A stretch of 8,687 bases of DNA from Hydrogenophaga sp. (GTDB lineage: Bacteria; Pseudomonadota; Gammaproteobacteria; Burkholderiales; Burkholderiaceae): positions 1 to 8,687 of the forward strand of contig JALOSH010000135.1 of NCBI GenBank assembly GCA_025458545.1. The letters are read 5' to 3'. Every line of letters begins with the position of its first letter. Position 1 is the stretch's first letter. Shown in pieces: positions 907 through 8,172 of this stretch. The notes under the pieces are model-generated. The model saw nothing but the letters and a program-made list of their open reading frames with translations. It did no database searches and was not told where the DNA came from. The position numbers and the translations under genes were made by a program.

Positions 907-1021
907 GAGGTCTCCTTTGAATGAAAGATCGATCCACATGACTTTAACCAGACAGAAGGGTGCGTGCCATGGCATGCAACCCCATTCAGCTATTCATGTT
1001 TGCGATGGCACGCGCGTTATT

Positions 1022-2253
1022 TCACAGTCGAAGCATGAACAGCGTGATGCCGGGAAACGCCACCAGGATGGCGGTGCGGATGAAATCGCTGGTGACGAAC
1101 GGCAGGATGGCGCGGTAGGTCTGGGTGATGGGCACATCTTTCGCCATGGCGTTGATCCCTCGGGGGTCAGGCCAAAATCCAGCGCCATGATGATGGGGAA
1201 AAACACCGGGATGGTCAGCAGGATCATGGACAGCGAGTCCATGAAACAGCCCAGGATCACGTACAGCAACAGGATGGCCACCAGCACCAGGATCGGGCTC
1301 AGGCCCCAGCCGGCCACCGCGCTGGCCGCTTCCTGAGGCAGTTGGGACAGCGCCAGGAAGGTGTTGTACAGGCCGGCGCCGAGCACGATCATGAAGATCA
1401 TGCCGGTGGCAATCGCCGTGCCCAGCAACGCACCCGTGAGCGTCTTGCGGTTCAGGCCGCCCCCGGCCCAGGCCGCGATGCCGGTGGAAAACGCACCGAT
1501 GGCCGCGCCTTCGGTGGGCGTGAAGATGCCGGTGTAGATGCCACCGACCACCACCAGAAAGATCACGATCACCGGCCAGGTGCGTGCCGTGGCGGCCCAG
1601 CGCTCTTTCATGGGCATGGGCGGCATGGTGCCCATTTCCTGCGGCCGAAGGCGCGCGTAAATGGCGATGGTGATCATGTAGCCCATGGCCGCCAGGATGC
1701 CGGGCACAAAGGCGGCCAGGAACAGCTTGGCGATGTTCTGCTCGGTCAGGATGGCGTAGATCACCAGCACCACCGACGGCGGGATCAGGATGCCCAGCGT
1801 GCCGCCAGCGGCCAGGCAGGCGGTGGAAATGCCGCCCGCGTAACCGGCGCGCTTCAACTCGGGCAAGGCCACCTGGCCCATGGTGGCGGCGGTGGCCAGC
1901 GACGAACCACATATGGCGCCGAAGCCGGCACAAGCGCCCACGGCCGCCATGGCCACCCCACCTTTGCGGTGACCAATCCAGGCCTCAGCGGCCTTGAACA
2001 GCGCCTGCGACAACCCCCCCATCGCGGCGAACTGACCCATCAGCAAAAACAGCGGGATGACCGACAGGTTGTAGTTGGAAAACGTGGTGTAAGTGACCTG
2101 CTTGAGCTGGTTCAGGATGGGTGTGGCCGAACCGTAAATCATCCAGGCGCCGCCGAGCCCGCACAGCAGCATGGACAGGCCGATCGGCACCCGCACGAAG
2201 ATCAGCAACAGCATGAAGGGGAATGACCAAAGGGCCAGTTCGATGGTGCTCAT
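1022..2253 (-). pseudogene. dctM: TRAP transporter large permease DctM, internally deleted and frameshifted
   Basis: This is the large membrane subunit of a TRAP transporter, which moves organic acids with Na+ using a periplasmic receptor. From ATG at 2251-2253 the frame gives a normal DctM for about 365 residues. It shows the GGTLGILIPPS loop, FTPTEGAAIGA, and FMDSLSMILLTIPVFFPII. After GLTPE (near 1159) the normal frame ends and continues as unrelated sequence to a stop at 994. The expected C-terminus (INAMAKDVP to GITLFMLRL, stop TGA 1022-1024) is in another frame starting at 1156. Known DctM proteins have about 29 more residues here, including the ITPPVG loop that mirrors the first IPPS loop. 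So this is a deletion of 3n+1 bases, not a single-base slip. Loss of that loop should abolish Na+-coupled transport (inference). dctQ lies 18 bases upstream. A genuine deletion is preferred; a cloning or assembly error is the alternative. Confidence 0.85.
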
Positions 2254-2271: not shown

Positions 2272-2793
2272 TCAGTGGCTGACGTTGGCCTCGACGGTCC
2301 AGCCCTTGGGCTCGGAACCCAGGCCAAAACGGGTGAGGGTGCGGGCCACGTAGCACAGGCAGCCGATCACCGCGCCCACCAGACAGAAGGCATAACCCCA
2401 CCACAGCGGCATGGCCAGGATGAAGGTGGTCTCCATGTACTCCCTCTTCTCCAGCATGCCTTCCCAGAGCTTCCAGGTCAGCACCAGCCAGACCGCGAGC
2501 ATGGCCAGGTCGCTGAGGGTGTCGACCGTCTTGCGGAACCACAGGGGCATGTGCATGTACAGCAGGTCCACCGTTGCGTGGCCACCGCGCAGATAGCACC
2601 AGGGCAAAAAGAAAAACACGGCGATGCCCACGCCGACCTCGACCAGTTCGAAGTCCCCGGGGATCGGGCCCAGACCGAGGTCCAGAAAGGCCCGACCGGT
2701 GACGCTGGCCACCACCATCAGGGTCACGGCCAACAACACGACACCGCCGACGATGGCGGTCCAGTTCGCTAAACGGTAAATCCAGGCGATCAT
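2272..2793 (-). CDS. dctQ: TRAP transporter small permease DctQ
   Basis: This is the small membrane subunit of a TRAP transporter; it pairs with DctM and helps dock the receptor. The protein has 173 residues, normal for the family, with four predicted membrane segments near 11-31, 49-69, 94-112 and 127-150. The pattern GxxxF(E/D)LVEVGVGIAVFFFLPWCYLRGGHATVD (about 46-75) is characteristic of DctQ. The start ATG (2791-2793) is supported by GAGGAA (2802-2807) 8 bases upstream. The dctM start lies 18 bases after the stop, so the two were an operon. The gene itself appears intact although its dctM partner and the adjacent dctP relic are damaged. Substrate cannot be read from this subunit. Confidence 0.93.
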   Translation of the reverse strand: MIAWIYRLANWTAIVGGVVLLAVTLMVVASVTGRAFLDLGLGPIPGDFELVEVGVGIAVFFFLPWCYLRGGHATVDLLYMHMPLWFRKTVDTLSDLAMLAVWLVLTWKLWEGMLEKREYMETTFILAMPLWWGYAFCLVGAVIGCLCYVARTLTRFGLGSEPKGWTVEANVSH

Positions 2794-2916: not shown

Positions 2917-2945
2917 CTTATGGTTTTTTAAAATAACCAAAATGT
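2917..2945. promoter_or_regulatory. AT-rich palindromic element upstream of dctQ (copy 1)
   Basis: A sharply AT-rich patch lies in otherwise GC-rich DNA. The core at 2922-2938 is a 17-base palindrome (GGTTTTTTAAAATAACC) with a single mismatch. TATGGTT (2919-2925), seven bases, then ATAAC (2933-2937) matches a second element at 6473-6491 base for base at the specified positions and in spacing. On the minus strand a perfect TTGACA (2943-2948) abuts it, about 150 bases before dctQ, so it may be the operator of the dctQM promoter. No good -10 box is seen at 16-18 bases. Operator function is inferred. Confidence 0.5.
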
Positions 2946-2949
2946 CAAG

Positions 2950-3150
2950 ATGGGAAACCCGGGTGCAGCCCCCTACGGCACCCGGGCGCAGCACTCAGCG
3001 GGCCTGGTCGAACAGCTGCGCCGGTCCCGCTATCTGCATGGCCTGGAACCGCTGGATCGTGGTGCACCCACCCGACCCGGTCTCGACCTTCTGCGACAGG
3101 GCACGATGGCCAGGTCCGGGGTCGCAGCCTGCGGTGGCAAGGACTGGTCG
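2950..3150 (-). pseudogene. Relic of a third TRAP solute receptor gene (dctP)
   Basis: On the minus strand this stretch aligns with the N-terminal third of both intact dctP genes in the window. Readable pieces are LPPQAATPDLAIVPC (DctP-1: LPPQATIPAKAIVPW), then after a one-base loss SQKVETGSGG (AQKVEAESGG), then AMQIAGPAQLFDQAR (SMQLGGTPVQLFDQAR), followed at once by TGA where the intact genes have Asp. A last trace, GCTRVSH-like, matches GYTPGRFPK near 2955-2965. One codon in the MQLGGTPV region and about six bases further on are also missing. The signal peptide and the C-terminal two thirds are absent. It sits just ahead of dctQ in the same orientation, the usual place of the receptor in a dctPQM operon, so it is probably the original partner of this transporter. 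It cannot encode a receptor. Confidence 0.85.
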
Positions 3151-3187
3151 TCATCCCAAGCCCGCACTGTCGGTCATCCCGTCATCC
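3150..3187. repeat. Three short GTCATCC direct repeats
   Basis: GTCATCCC occurs at 3150-3157 and 3173-3180, and GTCATCC at 3181-3187, the last two back to back. They lie between the dctP relic and the dctP-1 terminator. They could be chance, or the remains of a dispersed intergenic repeat. The rest of 2794-3256 outside the relic and the palindromic element holds no recognisable gene. Confidence 0.3.
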
Positions 3188-3256
3188 TTGAAAAGTGGCA
3201 TCGGGCACAACCAGCTATGAGCGTCTGGCATCTCGGCACCAACCCTGGACAGGCAC

Positions 3257-3283
3257 AAAAAAGCCGCCCTGACTGGGCGGCTT
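3257..3283 (-). terminator. Rho-independent terminator of dctP-1
   Basis: Read on the minus strand, AAGCCGCCC (3275-3283) pairs perfectly with GGGCGGCTT (3261-3269) across a five-base loop, giving a 9-bp GC-rich stem. The stem runs straight into a tract of six T (3257-3262). It lies 18 bases after the dctP-1 stop, so it should end the gntR-dctP-1 transcript and separate it from dctQM. Confidence 0.92.
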
Positions 3284-3301
3284 CGATCAGGTAGATCGCG
3301 T

Positions 3302-4339
3302 TTACTTGCTGTGCTTGGCGATCAGCGCGCGTGCTTCGGCAGCCAGTTTGGCGCCGTCGATGCCCTTGCCCTTGACCTCGTTGATCCAGTCGGTTTCCAC
3401 CGTGGCGGCGGTGCGGCGCCAGCGCTGCGTCTCGGCCAAGTCCAGCGCCACGATGTTGTTGCCCGCCTTGACCGCGATGTCGCGACCGATCTTGTCGCCT
3501 TCGTCCATGGCCCGGCCAAACAGCGTGGCGGCCACCATGCCCGAGTTGTTGTCGATCACCTTCTTCAGGTCGGGCGGCAGCTTGTCATAAGACGCTTTGT
3601 TCATCGAGAACGCGAAGGTCTGGGTGTACAGGCCGTCTTTGCCCGCAAACGTGGTGTGGTTCTTCACCAGCTCGGTGACCTTGAGCGCCGGCGTGACCTC
3701 CCAGGGGATGGTGGTGCCGTCGATCACACCTTTGGACAAGGCTTCGGTCACGGCCGGAACTGGCATGCCCACCGGAGTGGCGCCCAGCTTGGTCAGCATG
3801 TTGTTGATGATGCGCGAGCCGCCACGGATCTTCATGCCGCGCAGGCTCTCCAGCCCGGTCACCGGGGTCTTGGTGTGGAACAGGCCCGGGCCGTGGGTGT
3901 GCACCGCGATGAGCTTGACGTCCTTGAACTCTTCGGGTGCGAACTTCTCGACGTATTCCTGGATGGCTTTGGACGACTGCTCGGCACTGCCGCTCATGAA
4001 CGGCAATTCAAACACCTCGGTTTTCGGGAAACGCCCGGGGGTGTAGCCCAGCACGGTCCAGGTGATGTCGGCCACGCCGTCGCGGGCCTGATCAAACAGC
4101 TGGACCGGCGTGCCGCCCAGCTGCATCGACGGGAACAGTTGCACCTTGATGCGCCCGCCCGATTCGGCCTCCACCTTTTGCGCCCAGGGGACGATGGCCT
4201 TGGCCGGGATGGTGGCCTGCGGCGGCAGCATCTGGTGCAGGCGCAAGGTCACGGTCTGTGCGCTGGCGGTGCTGGCCAGGCTGGCCAGTGCCACGGCACT
4301 CAGTGCGTGCAGCGCGGTCCGTCGTGTGGTGAGTTTCAT
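3302..4339 (-). CDS. TRAP transporter solute-binding protein DctP (copy 1)
   Basis: This is a periplasmic receptor of the DctP family, which captures an organic acid for a TRAP permease. It has 345 residues, the normal length. Residues 1-27 form a signal peptide (RR near the start, hydrophobic core, ASA cleavage before QTVTLRL). The family hallmark SLRGMKIRGG (166-174) includes Arg172, the residue that normally grips the ligand carboxylate. LSKGVIDGTTIPWEV (201-215) and KNHTTF (226-231) are also typical. AGGAG (4346-4350) sits 6 bases before the ATG. The gene starts 68 bases after gntR ends, same strand, so the two may be cotranscribed; a strong terminator follows. It is very similar to the other intact copy at 5376-6404. 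Ligand unknown; an aromatic acid is plausible from the vanAB context, but C4-dicarboxylate-type names given to such proteins by default are not evidence. Confidence 0.93.
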   Translation of the reverse strand: MKLTTRRTALHALSAVALASLASTASAQTVTLRLHQMLPPQATIPAKAIVPWAQKVEAESGGRIKVQLFPSMQLGGTPVQLFDQARDGVADITWTVLGYTPGRFPKTEVFELPFMSGSAEQSSKAIQEYVEKFAPEEFKDVKLIAVHTHGPGLFHTKTPVTGLESLRGMKIRGGSRIINNMLTKLGATPVGMPVPAVTEALSKGVIDGTTIPWEVTPALKVTELVKNHTTFAGKDGLYTQTFAFSMNKASYDKLPPDLKKVIDNNSGMVAATLFGRAMDEGDKIGRDIAVKAGNNIVALDLAETQRWRRTAATVETDWINEVKGKGIDGAKLAAEARALIAKHSK

Positions 4340-4407
4340 GGTGGTCTCCTGTGGTGAGTGAAAAAAGAAAGGCTTCCCTGGGGTCGTTGGTCGGGGTGTC
4401 GGCGGGT

Positions 4408-5202
4408 TCAGGTCTGGCGCCGGATCAGTCGGATCGCCGGCAGCGACCCGCTTGCCGAAGAGTCGTCGGTCGATTGGGCACGCAGCACCTCCTGCAGGTT
4501 TCGCTGCGCCAGGCGCGAATGCTCACGCATGATGGCTTCGGCGCGGTAACTCTCGCGCTGCTCAATGGCGCAAAGCACCTGCCGGTGCTGGTCTTGAGCC
4601 ACCACCAGCATGTCGCGGGCTCGGCTGGACTGGGCTTGCAGCAACACGAACCCCGACGGCGAAGCGAACGGCAGGCTGACCACCCGGTCCAGCTGGCGCG
4701 CGATGGTCGGGCTCTGGGCCATCTCGCACAGCAATCTGTGAAAGCGGTGGTTGAGCGCCACGTAAGCGGAAAATCCTTGGTCATCCAGACGGGGTGCAGA
4801 CAGCACCGCATCGATGCCGTCCAGGCACTGGCGTGCCGATTGCAGCGCCAGCGGCGTCGCACCGCGCTCGGCCGCCAAGCGCGCCAGCAGTCCTTCGAGC
4901 GTGCCGCGCAGCTCGATCGCATCGGCCACATCGCGTTCGGTGAAGCTCTGCACCACGTAGCCCCCGCCGGGCAGCGCAGCGAGCAGGCCCTCCTGCTCCA
5001 ACCGCACGAGCGCCGCCCGGATGGGCGTGCGCGACATGCCCAGCCGCTCGACGATGGCCAGTTCGGCGATGCGGGTGCCGCCAGAAAGCTCCCCCGAGAG
5101 GATCAGCTCGCGCAGCCGCAGCTGTGCCCGTACCTGGGCGCTTTCGTTGGCGGCTGGCAGTGGCGTCGGGTCGTCATTGGACCGATGGGGAGCGGCACTC
5201 AT
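4408..5202 (-). CDS. GntR-family (FCD) regulator, VanR-like
   Basis: This is a ligand-responsive DNA-binding regulator of 264 residues. A winged helix-turn-helix spans about 22-86, with the GntR pattern LGMSRTPIRAALVRLEQEGLL (54-74), followed by an all-helical FCD effector domain (about 90-240). The domain entry FTERDVADAIELRGTLEGL resembles VanR, the vanillate repressor of pseudomonads (from memory, not searched). Metal-site positions are His155, His206 and His228, with Asn151 where many FCD proteins have Asp. ATG at 5200-5202 is chosen because the open frame upstream (to 5358) reads through the promoter and lacks GntR sequence. No ribosome site precedes this ATG, but a -10-like box lies 8 bases upstream, so the message may be leaderless. 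GTATAC sites in front suggest autoregulation. It lies between two dctP paralogues and may also be the vanillate sensor for vanAB. Confidence 0.88.
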   Translation of the reverse strand: MSAAPHRSNDDPTPLPAANESAQVRAQLRLRELILSGELSGGTRIAELAIVERLGMSRTPIRAALVRLEQEGLLAALPGGGYVVQSFTERDVADAIELRGTLEGLLARLAAERGATPLALQSARQCLDGIDAVLSAPRLDDQGFSAYVALNHRFHRLLCEMAQSPTIARQLDRVVSLPFASPSGFVLLQAQSSRARDMLVVAQDQHRQVLCAIEQRESYRAEAIMREHSRLAQRNLQEVLRAQSTDDSSASGSLPAIRLIRRQT

Positions 5203-5210
5203 GGCGTCAA

Positions 5211-5239
5211 TGTATACAGAAATCCTGAAATTGCCCCAA
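5211..5239 (-). promoter_or_regulatory. Candidate gntR promoter with operator on the -10 box
   Basis: On the minus strand TTGGGG (5234-5239) and TATACA (5211-5216) are separated by exactly 17 bases. The -10 box lies 8 bases before the gntR ATG, so transcription would begin at or beside the start codon. The -10 coincides with the perfect palindrome TGTATACA (5211-5218), a typical GntR/FCD half-site pair, so binding there would block RNA polymerase. The -35 match is weak. Confidence 0.5.
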
Positions 5240-5248
5240 AAAGTGGCC

Positions 5249-5281
5249 GGTATACGGGAAATCCATGAGTTTCTGTATCCC
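5249..5281. promoter_or_regulatory. Second and third GTATAC-type sites upstream of gntR
   Basis: GGTATACGGGAAATCC (5249-5264) repeats the pattern of TGTATACAGAAATCC (5211-5225), with centres 38 bases apart. A third, inverted copy GGGATACAGAAA reads on the minus strand at 5270-5281. Three related sites in one 173-base gap fit cooperative binding by the GntR protein. Function is inferred from pattern only. Confidence 0.45.
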
Positions 5282-5327
5282 AAAAAACGGCTGGGCGCAC
5301 CGGCCAGCATGGACCGGGCAGTCAAGC

Positions 5328-5354
5328 TCAAGGACCGCCCAAGGCGGCCCTTGA
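5328..5354 (-). terminator. Hairpin after dctP-2, possible weak terminator
   Basis: TCAAGGACCGCC (5328-5339) pairs with GGCGGCCCTTGA (5343-5354) across a three-base loop, with one mismatch in a 12-bp stem. It lies 22 bases beyond the dctP-2 stop. No T-tract follows on the minus strand, so it may stabilise the 3' end or end transcription only partly. Confidence 0.45.
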
Positions 5355-5375
5355 TCACTCATTCGGGCACTGCTG

Positions 5376-6404
5376 TCATTTTTCGTAGCGGCTGATCAGG
5401 GCCCGCGCCTCGGACACCAGGCGTGCGCCGTCGACGTTCTTGGACTGCATGTCCTTGATCCACTCCGACTCCACCGCGCTGGCGGTCCGGCGCCAGCGCT
5501 GCACCTCGGCCGCTTCCAGGGTGGTGATCCGGTTCCCGGCCTTCACGGCCAGGTCGCGCCCGACGTTGTCGCCCACATCCTGGGTCCGGGCGATCAAGGC
5601 GCTGAGTTCAAGACCAGAGTTGTCGTCGATCACCTTTTTCAGATCGGGCGGCAGCTTGTTGTACGAAGCCTTGTTCATGGCCAGCACGAAGGTCGTCACA
5701 TACAACGCACGGTCACCGGCAAAAGTGGTGTGGTTCTTCACCAGCTCCTGCACCTTCAGGGCGGGCGCCACCTCCCAGGGAATGGTGGTCCCGTCCAGCA
5801 CGCCCTTGGACAGCGCTTCGGTCACGGCCGGCACCGGCATGCCCACGGGTGTGGCACCCAGTTGGGTCAGCATGCTGTTGACCACGCGGGTACCACCGCG
5901 AATCTTCATGCCGCGCAGGCTTTCCAGACCGGTGATCGGCTGTTTGGTGTGGAACAGACCCGGTCCGTGGGTGTGCAAAGCCAGCACGTGCACGTCTTTG
6001 TATTCGTCCATCGCGTTTTTCTGCACGTAGTCCCACAGCGCGCGGGAGGTCTTTTCGGCCGACAGGCCTGCGATGAAAGGCAGCTCGAAAACCTCCGACT
6101 TGGGGAATCGACCGGGGGTGTAGCCCGGCAGTGTCCAAACGATGTCGGCCACGCCATCGCGTGCCTGGTCATAGAGTTGCGGCGGCGTGCCGCCCAGCTG
6201 CATGGAGGGGAACAGCTGGATCTTGATGCGCCCCTTGGATTCGTCTTCGATCTTCTTCGCCCAGGGCACCAGCGCCTTGGACGGCACCGTGCCTTGCGGC
6301 GGCAAGAAATGGTGCAGACGCAGCGTCACCTCCTGTGCGAACGCGTTCAGGCTGGCCGAAGCGGCCAGGGCCAGCGCAGCGACTTTGAAACCCCAAGATG
6401 CCAT
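5376..6404 (-). CDS. TRAP transporter solute-binding protein DctP (copy 2)
   Basis: This is a second periplasmic TRAP receptor, 342 residues. The signal peptide covers residues 1-23 (AFA cleavage before QEVTLRL). The ligand-binding core matches copy 1 closely: the DQARDGVAD block, GYTPGRFPK, the SLRGMKIRGG hallmark with Arg169, LSKGVLDGTTIPWEV, KNHTTFAG, and the C-terminal QRWRRT. Differences cluster in about 112-140 and 232-275, which may alter ligand or partner preference. The start at 6402-6404 is chosen because AGGAG (6411-6415) lies 6 bases upstream and a signal peptide begins at once; the open frame back to 6488 adds 28 residues with no signal-peptide character. It is the first minus-strand gene of the divergent region facing marR-vanAB, and its promoter region carries the palindromic element at 6471-6498. 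No intact permease pair is visible nearby. Confidence 0.93.
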   Translation of the reverse strand: MASWGFKVAALALAASASLNAFAQEVTLRLHHFLPPQGTVPSKALVPWAKKIEDESKGRIKIQLFPSMQLGGTPPQLYDQARDGVADIVWTLPGYTPGRFPKSEVFELPFIAGLSAEKTSRALWDYVQKNAMDEYKDVHVLALHTHGPGLFHTKQPITGLESLRGMKIRGGTRVVNSMLTQLGATPVGMPVPAVTEALSKGVLDGTTIPWEVAPALKVQELVKNHTTFAGDRALYVTTFVLAMNKASYNKLPPDLKKVIDDNSGLELSALIARTQDVGDNVGRDLAVKAGNRITTLEAAEVQRWRRTASAVESEWIKDMQSKNVDGARLVSEARALISRYEK

Positions 6405-6410
6405 GTTGAT

Positions 6411-6415
6411 CTCCT
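6411..6415 (-). promoter_or_regulatory. Ribosome binding site fixing the dctP-2 start
   Basis: AGGAG on the minus strand, 6 bases before ATG 6402-6404. It favours this start over the in-frame ATG at 6488, which would place extra residues ahead of the signal peptide. Confidence 0.8.
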
Positions 6416-6470
6416 GTTGCTGGCCTGCTCTCAGGCCGGTGGATGAAGGAAGACACGCCACGGCGCGTCG

Positions 6471-6498
6471 CCTATGGTTATTTTCCATAACAATATGT
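6471..6498. promoter_or_regulatory. Palindromic operator candidate between dctP-2 and marR (copy 2)
   Basis: TATGGTTAT (6473-6481) and ATAACAATA (6487-6495) form 9-base inverted arms with one mismatch around a five-base centre, an AT-rich island in GC-rich DNA. The size and symmetry suit a MarR dimer. TATGGTT-N7-ATAAC is shared exactly with 2919-2937, and flanking bases (CTTATGG versus CCTATGG; CAAAATGT versus AATATGT) also agree with one gap. It lies 69 bases upstream of dctP-2 and about 190 bases upstream of marR, so it could control both directions. Binding protein is inferred. Confidence 0.55.
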
Positions 6499-6509
6499 AC
6501 GCTGACCTC

Positions 6510-6525
6510 CTAGGACTTTCCCTAG
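6510..6525. promoter_or_regulatory. Small inverted repeat in the divergent region
   Basis: CTAGG (6510-6514) and CCTAG (6521-6525) are inverted with a six-base gap, and CCTAGG at 6509-6514 is itself palindromic. CTAG is often rare in such genomes, so two copies 11 bases apart are mildly notable. The rest of the 6405-6686 gap shows no gene and no convincing sigma-70 promoter by eye. Confidence 0.3.
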
Positions 6526-6686: not shown

Positions 6687-7496
6687 ATGTCACCCCGATT
6701 CGACGAGCACCTGCACCATGAGCCCGGTCACCTGATCCGGCGCGCGCACCAGTTGGCGGTGGCCACCTTCCACGAAGTGCACGGGCGCCAGGTCACGCCT
6801 GTTCAATACGCGGTGCTGCGCGCGCTGGCGGAGGCGCCCGACATCGACCAGGTGACGCTGGCCGAGAAGGTGGCGCTGGACACGTCCACCACCGCCGACA
6901 TCGCCACCCGGCTGGAGGCCAAGGGCTGGATCGAGCGCGAACTGATGGCGCGGCGTCAGCGCAGCCTTCGTCTGACACCCGCAGGCCGGGCGGTGCTGAC
7001 CGAGATGCTGGGCCGCGTCGAGTCCATGTACCAGCGCCTGCTGGGCGCGCTTTCGGTACAGGAGCAGAAAGACTTCTTGCGTCTCCTGGCCAAACTCGCC
7101 AAGACGACCGAACCACAAGACCATGTTCCCTCTGAACACCTGGTACGTGGCCGCCCGCAGCGAAGAGATCGGCACGGAACGTCCACTGGGACGGCGCATC
7201 TGCAACATTCCCATGGCGCTGTTCCGCAACAGTTCGGGCGTGGCCGCAGCCGTGGAAGACTTCTGCCCGCACCGCGGCGCCCCGCTCTCGCTGGGCAGGG
7301 TGGTCGGCGACACGCTGGTCTGCGGCTACCACGGCCTGGCCATGGGCTGCGACGGCAAAACCGTGTCCATGCCCGGTCAGCGCACCCGCGGCTTTCCGGC
7401 CAACCGCAGCTTCCCCATTCACGAGGAGCACGGCTTCGTGTGGGTGTGGCCGGGCGATTCGGCCAAGGCGGACGTGGCCAGCATCCCGAAGTTTGA
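6687..7496 (+). CDS. MarR-family regulator; frame runs on into vanA
   Basis: This is a winged helix-turn-helix regulator of the MarR family, which usually represses nearby catabolic genes until an aromatic ligand binds. Domain residues are about 1-140: a dimerising N-terminal helix, then QVTPVQYAVLRAL (35-47), recognition region LAEKVALDTSTTADIATRLEAKGWI (58-82), and wing RRQRSLRLTPAGR (89-101), all classic. ATG 6687-6689 is the only start that gives a normal N-terminus; no clear ribosome site precedes it. Oddly, no stop follows the domain. The frame passes through the vanA start and ends only at TGA 7494-7496, giving 269 residues, and the last 120 or so are just vanA read in another frame. 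Another frame has TGA at 7133-7135, the natural place for the end, so an indel near 7090-7122 is possible. It lies directly ahead of vanAB and probably controls them. The domain is certain; the end is not. Confidence 0.75.
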   Translation: MSPRFDEHLHHEPGHLIRRAHQLAVATFHEVHGRQVTPVQYAVLRALAEAPDIDQVTLAEKVALDTSTTADIATRLEAKGWIERELMARRQRSLRLTPAGRAVLTEMLGRVESMYQRLLGALSVQEQKDFLRLLAKLAKTTEPQDHVPSEHLVRGRPQRRDRHGTSTGTAHLQHSHGAVPQQFGRGRSRGRLLPAPRRPALAGQGGRRHAGLRLPRPGHGLRRQNRVHARSAHPRLSGQPQLPHSRGARLRVGVAGRFGQGGRGQHPEV

Positions 7497-8172
7497 ATGG
7501 TTGGGCAACCCGCAATTCGGATATGGCGGCGGCTTGTATGAAATCGCCTGTGACTACCGCCTGATGATCGACAACCTGATGGACCTGACGCACGAAACCT
7601 ATGTGCACAGCACCAGCATTGGCCAGAAGGAAATTGACGAAGTGCCGTGCCAGACCCGCGTGGACGGCGATCATGTGATCACCGAGCGCCACATGGAAGG
7701 CATCGAGGCGCCGCCGTTCTGGAAGATGGCGCTGCGCATGAACGGCCTGCCCGACGACCAGCTGGTGGACCGCTGGCAGATCTGCCACTTCACGCCGCCC
7801 AGCCACATCATGATCGAGGTGGGCGTGGCGCTGCAGGGCCACGGCGGCTACCACGCGCCCGACGAGTTCAAGGCCGCGAGCTGGGTGGTGGACTTCATCA
7901 CCCCCGAGACCGACACCAGCATCCACTACTTCTGGGGCATGGCGCGCAAGTTCAAGCCGACCGACGCGGCGCTGACCGCCCAGATCCGCGAAGGCCAGGG
8001 CAAGATCTTCGGCGAGGACCAGGAGATGCTGGAGCGCCAGCAAAGGAACCTGCTGGCCTACCCGGATCGCAAGCTGTTGATGCTCAACATCGACACCGGC
8101 GGCGTGCAATCGCGCAAGGTGATCGAGCGCGTGATCGCGGCCGAAAAGGCTTCCCAACAGGCGGCTGCATGA
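7123..8172 (+). CDS. vanA: Vanillate O-demethylase oxygenase subunit (VanA-like Rieske oxygenase)
   Basis: This is the terminal oxygenase that removes the O-methyl group of vanillate as formaldehyde, giving protocatechuate, with electrons from VanB. It has 349 residues, normal for VanA. The Rieske [2Fe-2S] ligands are Cys48, His50 ([11 protein letters not shown]) and Cys67, His70 (CGYHGL). The catalytic iron site is [12 protein letters not shown] (151-162), with His157 and His162 as ligands and Asp154 as the likely electron bridge. The third ligand is probably Asp299 in [23 protein letters not shown] (74-87) and the C-terminal [17 protein letters not shown] are strongly VanA-like. A weak ribosome site suggests coupling to marR. 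The stop overlaps the vanB start. A related methoxybenzoate or dicamba-type demethylase is the alternative. Confidence 0.88.

Follow-up and report, generated by a model that had tools for sequence, protein, structure and literature searches.

We analysed an 8,687-nucleotide stretch of a Hydrogenophaga sp. assembly (GCA_025458545.1, contig JALOSH010000135.1; hereafter the window), which carries two copies of a palindromic element, site A upstream of dctQ and site B upstream of dctP2, both genes encoding components of tripartite ATP-independent periplasmic (TRAP) transport. Sequence comparison with related genomes and analogy with characterized systems give us good confidence that the two sites are probably operators for a CouR/FerR-like repressor of the MarR family, which would control the use of hydroxycinnamates (ferulate, p-coumarate) from a gene located outside the window. 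The palindrome itself shows conservation, occurs rarely in genomes, and precedes hydroxycinnamate-type genes.

The initial annotation of this DNA had described the pattern TATGGTT-N7-ATAAC at positions 2919 and 6473 as a pair of near-palindromes with one mismatch each, lying in AT islands, and this description held: all 12 of the 12 fixed bases and the spacing are the same in both copies, each 19-bp symmetric core (TNGTTAT-N5-ATAACNA; Table 1) is asymmetric at one pair, and the cores with four bases on either side have GC fractions of 0.19 (site A) and 0.30 (site B) against 0.645 for the window. The strict form of the palindrome is matched by site B and missed by one base by site A, and an ungapped alignment of the two over 28 bases has 18 identical positions. 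The annotation had also stated that the sequences beyond the element bear no resemblance to each other, which was mistaken, as a TAGGG...CC box is common to both (distances in Table 1, counted upstream of the core on the transcript strand). At three or fewer mismatches the window contained five matches against 0.89 expected, a number equalled in two of 200 shuffles; because the pattern had been picked after seeing the sequence, a matrix built without the window is the fairer test, and one was constructed from 60 target-linked sites of other loci, with the window and locus L002 excluded. Site A scored 35.3 bits and site B 29.0 bits (training range 25–47, median 40), and the next-best values in the window were 1.4, at a position overlapping site A, and −9.0. 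Among 512,105 positions in 34 loci that carry relatives of the MarR protein encoded in the window (window-type MarR; L143–L176), none scored as high as site A and one reached the score of site B, upstream of echA, the gene of an enoyl-CoA hydratase-family protein. A chance resemblance or a duplicated block might be suspected from the AT-rich cores and from a dctP remnant beside site A, which shows local rearrangement, but this explanation is extremely improbable given that the matrix scores lie far above the rest of the window and that the element recurs before the same genes in many genomes. As far as these sequences can indicate, the element is a true regulatory site, of a class that precedes genes for the use of plant phenolics such as ferulate.

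Among six loci with relatives of the window MarR, the palindrome was found again in four (L001, L002, L003, and L006), preceding dctP2 in L002 and L003 and the amidohydrolase gene amh in all four, and a search of six whole genomes allowing one mismatch returned one to three distinct places per genome. In a scan of 299 genomes from the family of genome G002, the strict palindrome occurred at 68 places in 61 of the 299 genomes, and a reversed control in 14 genomes. The surroundings of these 68 sites make up 66 loci. For 57 of the 68 sites, the alignment of echA, echB, amh, or dctP2 begins no more than 300 bp downstream; with L001, L003, and L006 added, this holds for 60 of 71 sites, and the other 11 have none of these genes within that distance. 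Distances from site to alignment start range from 16 to 117 bp. An echA homologue at E ≤ 1e-85 is present in 174 of the 299 genomes. When the 30 best echA homologues were picked by protein rather than by site, every one had the palindrome at two or fewer mismatches just upstream (none in 16 loci, one in 7, two in 7), and 25 of the 30 reached the training range of the matrix.

The genes that follow the palindrome are consistent with a role in hydroxycinnamate catabolism. An AMP-binding acyl-CoA synthetase gene usually follows echA, and echB scored 471 bits against a cut-off of 276 for the NCBIfam model of p-hydroxycinnamoyl-CoA hydratase/lyase. The synthetase, at 688 bits, fell under the cut-off of its best NCBIfam model (777), so that "feruloyl-CoA synthetase" is only a likely label. 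Clusters of neighbouring genes in the site loci included tannase/feruloyl esterase, thiolase, acyl-CoA dehydrogenase, and short-chain dehydrogenase families. Transport is represented by dctP2, which is at least 78% identical in five relatives (G002, G003, G214, G047, and G286); it has its own site 29–77 bp upstream in the first four, and in G286 it follows amh, which has the site upstream. Among 24 more distant dctP loci (58–71% identity), L215 and L216 scored 26.6 and 20.7 with the matrix and the others at most 13.4.

Clustering of the neighbouring genes turned up a second MarR-family protein, here termed MarR9, which is absent from the window and was found in 14 of the site loci. MarR9 matches the Pfam families MarR_2 and MarR, and its best PDB match is CouR (6c28, 1e-21; next 9e-13). 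It was found in seven of nine relatives searched. For the survey of the 299 genomes, strong matches were delimited by cut-offs of our own setting (E up to 1.5e-38 for MarR9 and up to 9e-41 for window-type MarR), by which 101 genomes have a strong MarR9 and 37 a strong window-type MarR. The strict site was present in 53 of the 101 genomes with a strong MarR9 and in 8 of the 198 without; broken down by regulator, it was present in 20 of 26 genomes with both proteins, 33 of 75 with MarR9 only, none of 11 with window-type MarR only, and 8 of 187 with neither. A strong MarR9 gene lies within 20 kb of 43 of the 68 sites, and a window-type marR gene within 20 kb of 4. Of three loci with a hydratase/lyase site (L092, L095, and L096), two (G225 and G295) have a weaker gene of the MarR9 type at a distance of about 7 kb from the site, and the third (G101) has a strong MarR9 gene at 13 kb. 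The marks of a CouR-type system are a MarR-family regulator nearest to CouR, represented by MarR9 as the presumed regulator; an operator before CoA ligase and enoyl-CoA hydratase genes, found here with the ligase substrate as a likely label; and a TRAP transporter under the same operator, found in the window and in relatives.

The region before echA was inspected in 8 of the 11 genomes that have window-type MarR and no strong MarR9. G185 and G263, in which echA is 78% identical and MarR9 has no match, showed nothing site-like there (five to six mismatches). Five genomes with weaker MarR9 relatives (G058, G252, G174, G062, and G226) had altered palindromes before echA, such as TGCTTAAGACTATTAACCA, at two to four mismatches; four of them also have the companion box, 31 bp upstream of the palindrome. 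Half-sites of the form TGNTTA... precede echA in L290, L291, L292, and L295, where co-evolution of operator and regulator is possible.

Several observations weigh against assigning the sites to MarR9. The strict site was missing from 48 of the 101 genomes with a strong MarR9; G001 has the strict site and no MarR9 match, in an assembly of 2.6 Mb in at least 257 contigs; and G150, also without a MarR9 match, has a one-mismatch copy at −273 before echA. Weaker matches were scored as absent, which concerns 60 genomes for window-type MarR (16 of them with the strict site) and 32 for MarR9. The co-occurrence of MarR9 and the site could reflect joint inheritance with echA, 5 of the 30 protein-picked echA loci fell below the training range of the matrix, and MarR9 is known from the genomes of relatives, the window organism's own genome lying outside the comparison. 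Among 33 MarR9 loci a site occurs in L199 alone, where it is the site of an amh gene about 1 kb away, and on this ground autoregulation of MarR9 was dropped. Lastly, dctQM of the window has an operator copy of its own, unlike that of the three relatives in which the junction was read (L002, L003, and L115), none of which has a counterpart of site A before dctQ. In these relatives dctP1 and dctQ are about 100–165 bp apart, and in the window about 508 bp, a distance that holds the dctP remnant (75% identity to dctP1 DNA over 146 columns, E 4e-21); our inference is that dctQM became detached from dctP1 and gained a dctP2-like promoter.

It is unlikely that the palindrome is bound by some other regulator to which MarR9 is merely linked through the pathway. 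Association is not binding, and 25 of the 68 sites have no strong MarR9 gene within 20 kb (8 of the 25 on contigs shorter than 20 kb). Against this, MarR9 is a homologue of CouR, and in the 45 largest neighbour clusters of the 66 site loci, inspected by eye with a Pfam scan of only some clusters, the likely regulators were just MarR9 (14 loci), a 103-residue helix-turn-helix protein (4 loci), and window-type MarR (3 loci).

The annotation had proposed a single regulator for both parts of the transporter, most simply the adjacent MarR, acting possibly also on vanAB. The first part of this proposal stands, in that one regulator is most likely and both sites are TRAP-related; the adjacent MarR as that regulator, binding both sites and controlling the transporter, itself, and vanAB, is quite unlikely. 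Its appeal comes from position, with the site B core 194 bp upstream of the divergent marR in the window and a site 131 bp upstream in L003, from the enrichment of the strict site in genomes with a strong window-type MarR (20 of 37, against 41 of 262 others), and from G150, which has this protein, no MarR9 match, and a one-mismatch site before echA. All 20 of the site-bearing genomes, however, also have a strong MarR9, and the strict site occurs in none of the 11 genomes that have window-type MarR but lack a strong MarR9, though an echA homologue (E ≤ 1e-85) is present in every one of them. Nor was the expected conservation before orthologous marR-vanAB loci observed: of the 44 marR loci, just 2 have a site with at most one mismatch within 300 bp upstream of marR, namely the window and L003, and in each of them dctP2 is a neighbour; none of 46 vanA matches in relatives has a site within 300 bp upstream (L002 and L103 are one genome in these locus counts). 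One MarR9 compared with the window MarR is 24% identical to it, and the recognition-helix regions differ.

The window-type MarR family has, moreover, a palindrome of its own, TCATTCAG-N4-CTGAATGA, found at three or fewer mismatches in 35 of the 44 marR loci, 32 of which have it no more than 170 bp from vanA (for example L002 7487, L144 8493, and L148 8502); an exact ATTCA-N6-TGAAT is present in 26 of 32 marR-vanA gaps, a count in which L002/L103 enters twice and the 1-bp gap of the window is included. This palindrome is a candidate operator of the PcaV/HosA-like window-type family. No exact dyad was shared upstream of marR, the most frequent one occurring in just 3 of the 44 loci. The adjacent MarR was accordingly set aside on co-occurrence, position, and the family's own palindrome. 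The window itself contains no TCATTCAG-N4-CTGAATGA palindrome within four mismatches, and since the vanA palindrome is missing there, an indirect effect of the sites on marR-vanAB is possible in the window. The marR-vanA gap measures 66–355 bp in 30 of 32 entries, 1148 bp in L173, and 1 bp in the window, where at 7121–7123 the marR frame runs into vanA without a marR stop; a 97% identical MarR (P0001) ends normally at 151 residues, and the junction in the window is either a real deletion or an assembly error.

The GntR/FCD protein, whose gene lies between the two sites, is a very unlikely binder of them, since a different element, TGTATACA, is present within 200 bp upstream of the gntR alignment in five of six loci (the window, L100, L104, L171, and L174; not L101), and gntR occurs in three of the 66 site loci (L100, L101, and L104). 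GTATAC repeats at 5212–5280 precede gntR in the window, and TGTATACA with these repeats is a candidate GntR/FCD operator. GntR as the regulator of sites A and B was set aside on the strength of its own element.

Table 1. Positions of the operator sites, companion boxes, and genes in the window
Feature	Position	Strand	Remarks
Operator site A (probable)	2921..2939	−	core TGGTTATTTTAAAAAACCA on the dctQ strand; 127 bp from core to dctQ
Operator site B (probable)	6475..6493	−	core TTGTTATGGAAAATAACCA on the dctP2 strand; dctP2 begins 74 bp downstream
Companion box A	2961..2975	−	TAGGGGGCTGCACCC; start 36 bp upstream of site A core
Companion box B	6513..6524	−	TAGGGAAAGTCC; start 31 bp upstream of site B core
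dctQ, TRAP small permease	2272..2793	−	Pfam DctQ 4e-22; downstream of site A
dctM, TRAP large permease	994..2253	−	Pfam DctM 2e-76, residues 13–360 of 419
dctP1, TRAP solute-binding protein	3302..4339	−	Pfam DctP
dctP remnant	2998..3139	−	corresponds to about residues 37–86 of dctP1; between dctP1 and site A
dctP2, TRAP solute-binding protein	5376..6401	−	Pfam DctP; PDB 5im2 3e-112, 7nr2 8e-108
marR	6687..7122	+	Pfam MarR; PcaV/HosA-like; adjoins site B
vanA-like Rieske oxygenase	7123..8172	+	Pfam VanA_C
GntR/FCD regulator	4408..5202	−	Pfam FCD, GntR
tctC/Bug gene		−	
Reductase, start only		+	

An apparent frame shift near position 1160 was noted by eye in dctM, with a DctM-like C-terminal continuation in a different frame.

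The companion box recurs well beyond the window. A TAGGG-WAAR box lies 31–44 bp upstream of many copies of the palindrome, and TAGGG...CC starts 31–36 bp upstream of the core in all six TRAP site promoters (A, B, L103, L003, L104, and L115). TAGGG was found 20–45 bp upstream in 24 of 55 echA-site pairs, three of three echB pairs, and 2 of 35 amh pairs, compared with 85 of 20,000 random 25-base windows. In echA promoters the expression GGG[TAG]WW[AG][CT] starts 34–41 bp upstream in 38 of 51 cases, the distance being exactly 40 bp in 31 of the 51; the counts were 0–3 of 51 for other distance windows and 15 of 5000 for random ones, figures to be read with the facts that the expression was devised after seeing these promoters and that relatedness inflates the counts. 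The same expression is present in 23 of the 30 protein-picked echA loci, a set that overlaps the 51. Perfect TAGGG dyads were searched for in eight genomes, with matches in seven, control matches in five, and mixed neighbours, and no binding protein could be named.

Tentatively, and with somewhat more doubt than belief, we suggest that these are two-input promoters, in which the palindrome of a CouR-like repressor would be combined with a (C)TAGGG-WAA[AG]-NCC box for an activator at a nearly fixed distance, forming a family-wide hydroxycinnamate regulon module (echA-fcs, hydratase/lyase, TRAP). The half-sites (TGNTTA...) would change with a diverged MarR9 while the box stays 31 bp away; the module would also have been put before dctQ in the lineage of the window, and marR-vanAB may have come under site B through the loss of the vanA palindrome.

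Under the CouR/FerR-like reading, a MarR9 dimer would bind the palindrome over the core promoter and block transcription, a CoA ligase would convert the imported phenolic to its CoA thioester, and the thioester would release the repressor, such that the catabolic enzymes and the TRAP uptake system would be induced together, with site B driving dctP2 and site A driving dctQM. For the use of hydroxycinnamates throughout a large family of bacteria, this would provide a defined operator sequence together with a candidate for its regulator, tie TRAP uptake to catabolism by DNA sequence, and leave the vanillate-side MarR with a separate candidate operator; it also cautions that the nearest regulator gene is not the best candidate. 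Among the papers listed by the literature searches made here, none describes this operator in this family as judged by title and the beginning of the abstract.

The closest parallel is the CouR regulon of Rhodopseudomonas palustris (couAB, CouPSTU, TarPQM), in which a MarR regulator likewise controls a coumarate-CoA ligase, an enoyl-CoA hydratase, and the TarPQM TRAP transporter (PMC3610893); the present system differs in having a divergent amidohydrolase among its main targets and, in the window, two dctP genes with a single dctQM. CouR of Rhodococcus jostii RHA1 is a MarR-type repressor at an inverted repeat with a 5-bp spacer (PMC4737184), as would be the case here. Its box reads cATTGA-5-TCAATg and overlaps the −35 region (PMC4737184), whereas ours reads TGGTTAT-5-ATAACCA, with a right half that seems to resemble a −10 box; the R. 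jostii protein is also described there as autoregulated, and no autoregulation was seen for MarR9 in 33 loci. FerR of Pseudomonas fluorescens, FerC of Sphingobium SYK-6, and HcaR of Acinetobacter and Agrobacterium are similar in being MarR regulators of hydroxycinnamate catabolism that are described as responding to CoA thioesters (PMC10458429, PMC5487221), and these sources, with PMC4737184, describe CouR, FerC, FerR, and HcaR as released by hydroxycinnamoyl-CoA. The window MarR resembles the PcaV, HosA, and DesR type: its best PDB matches are PcaV (5e-17) and then HosA (2e-15), DesR regulates vanillate genes (PMC6888825), and the palindrome of the window-type family is unlike the element of sites A and B.

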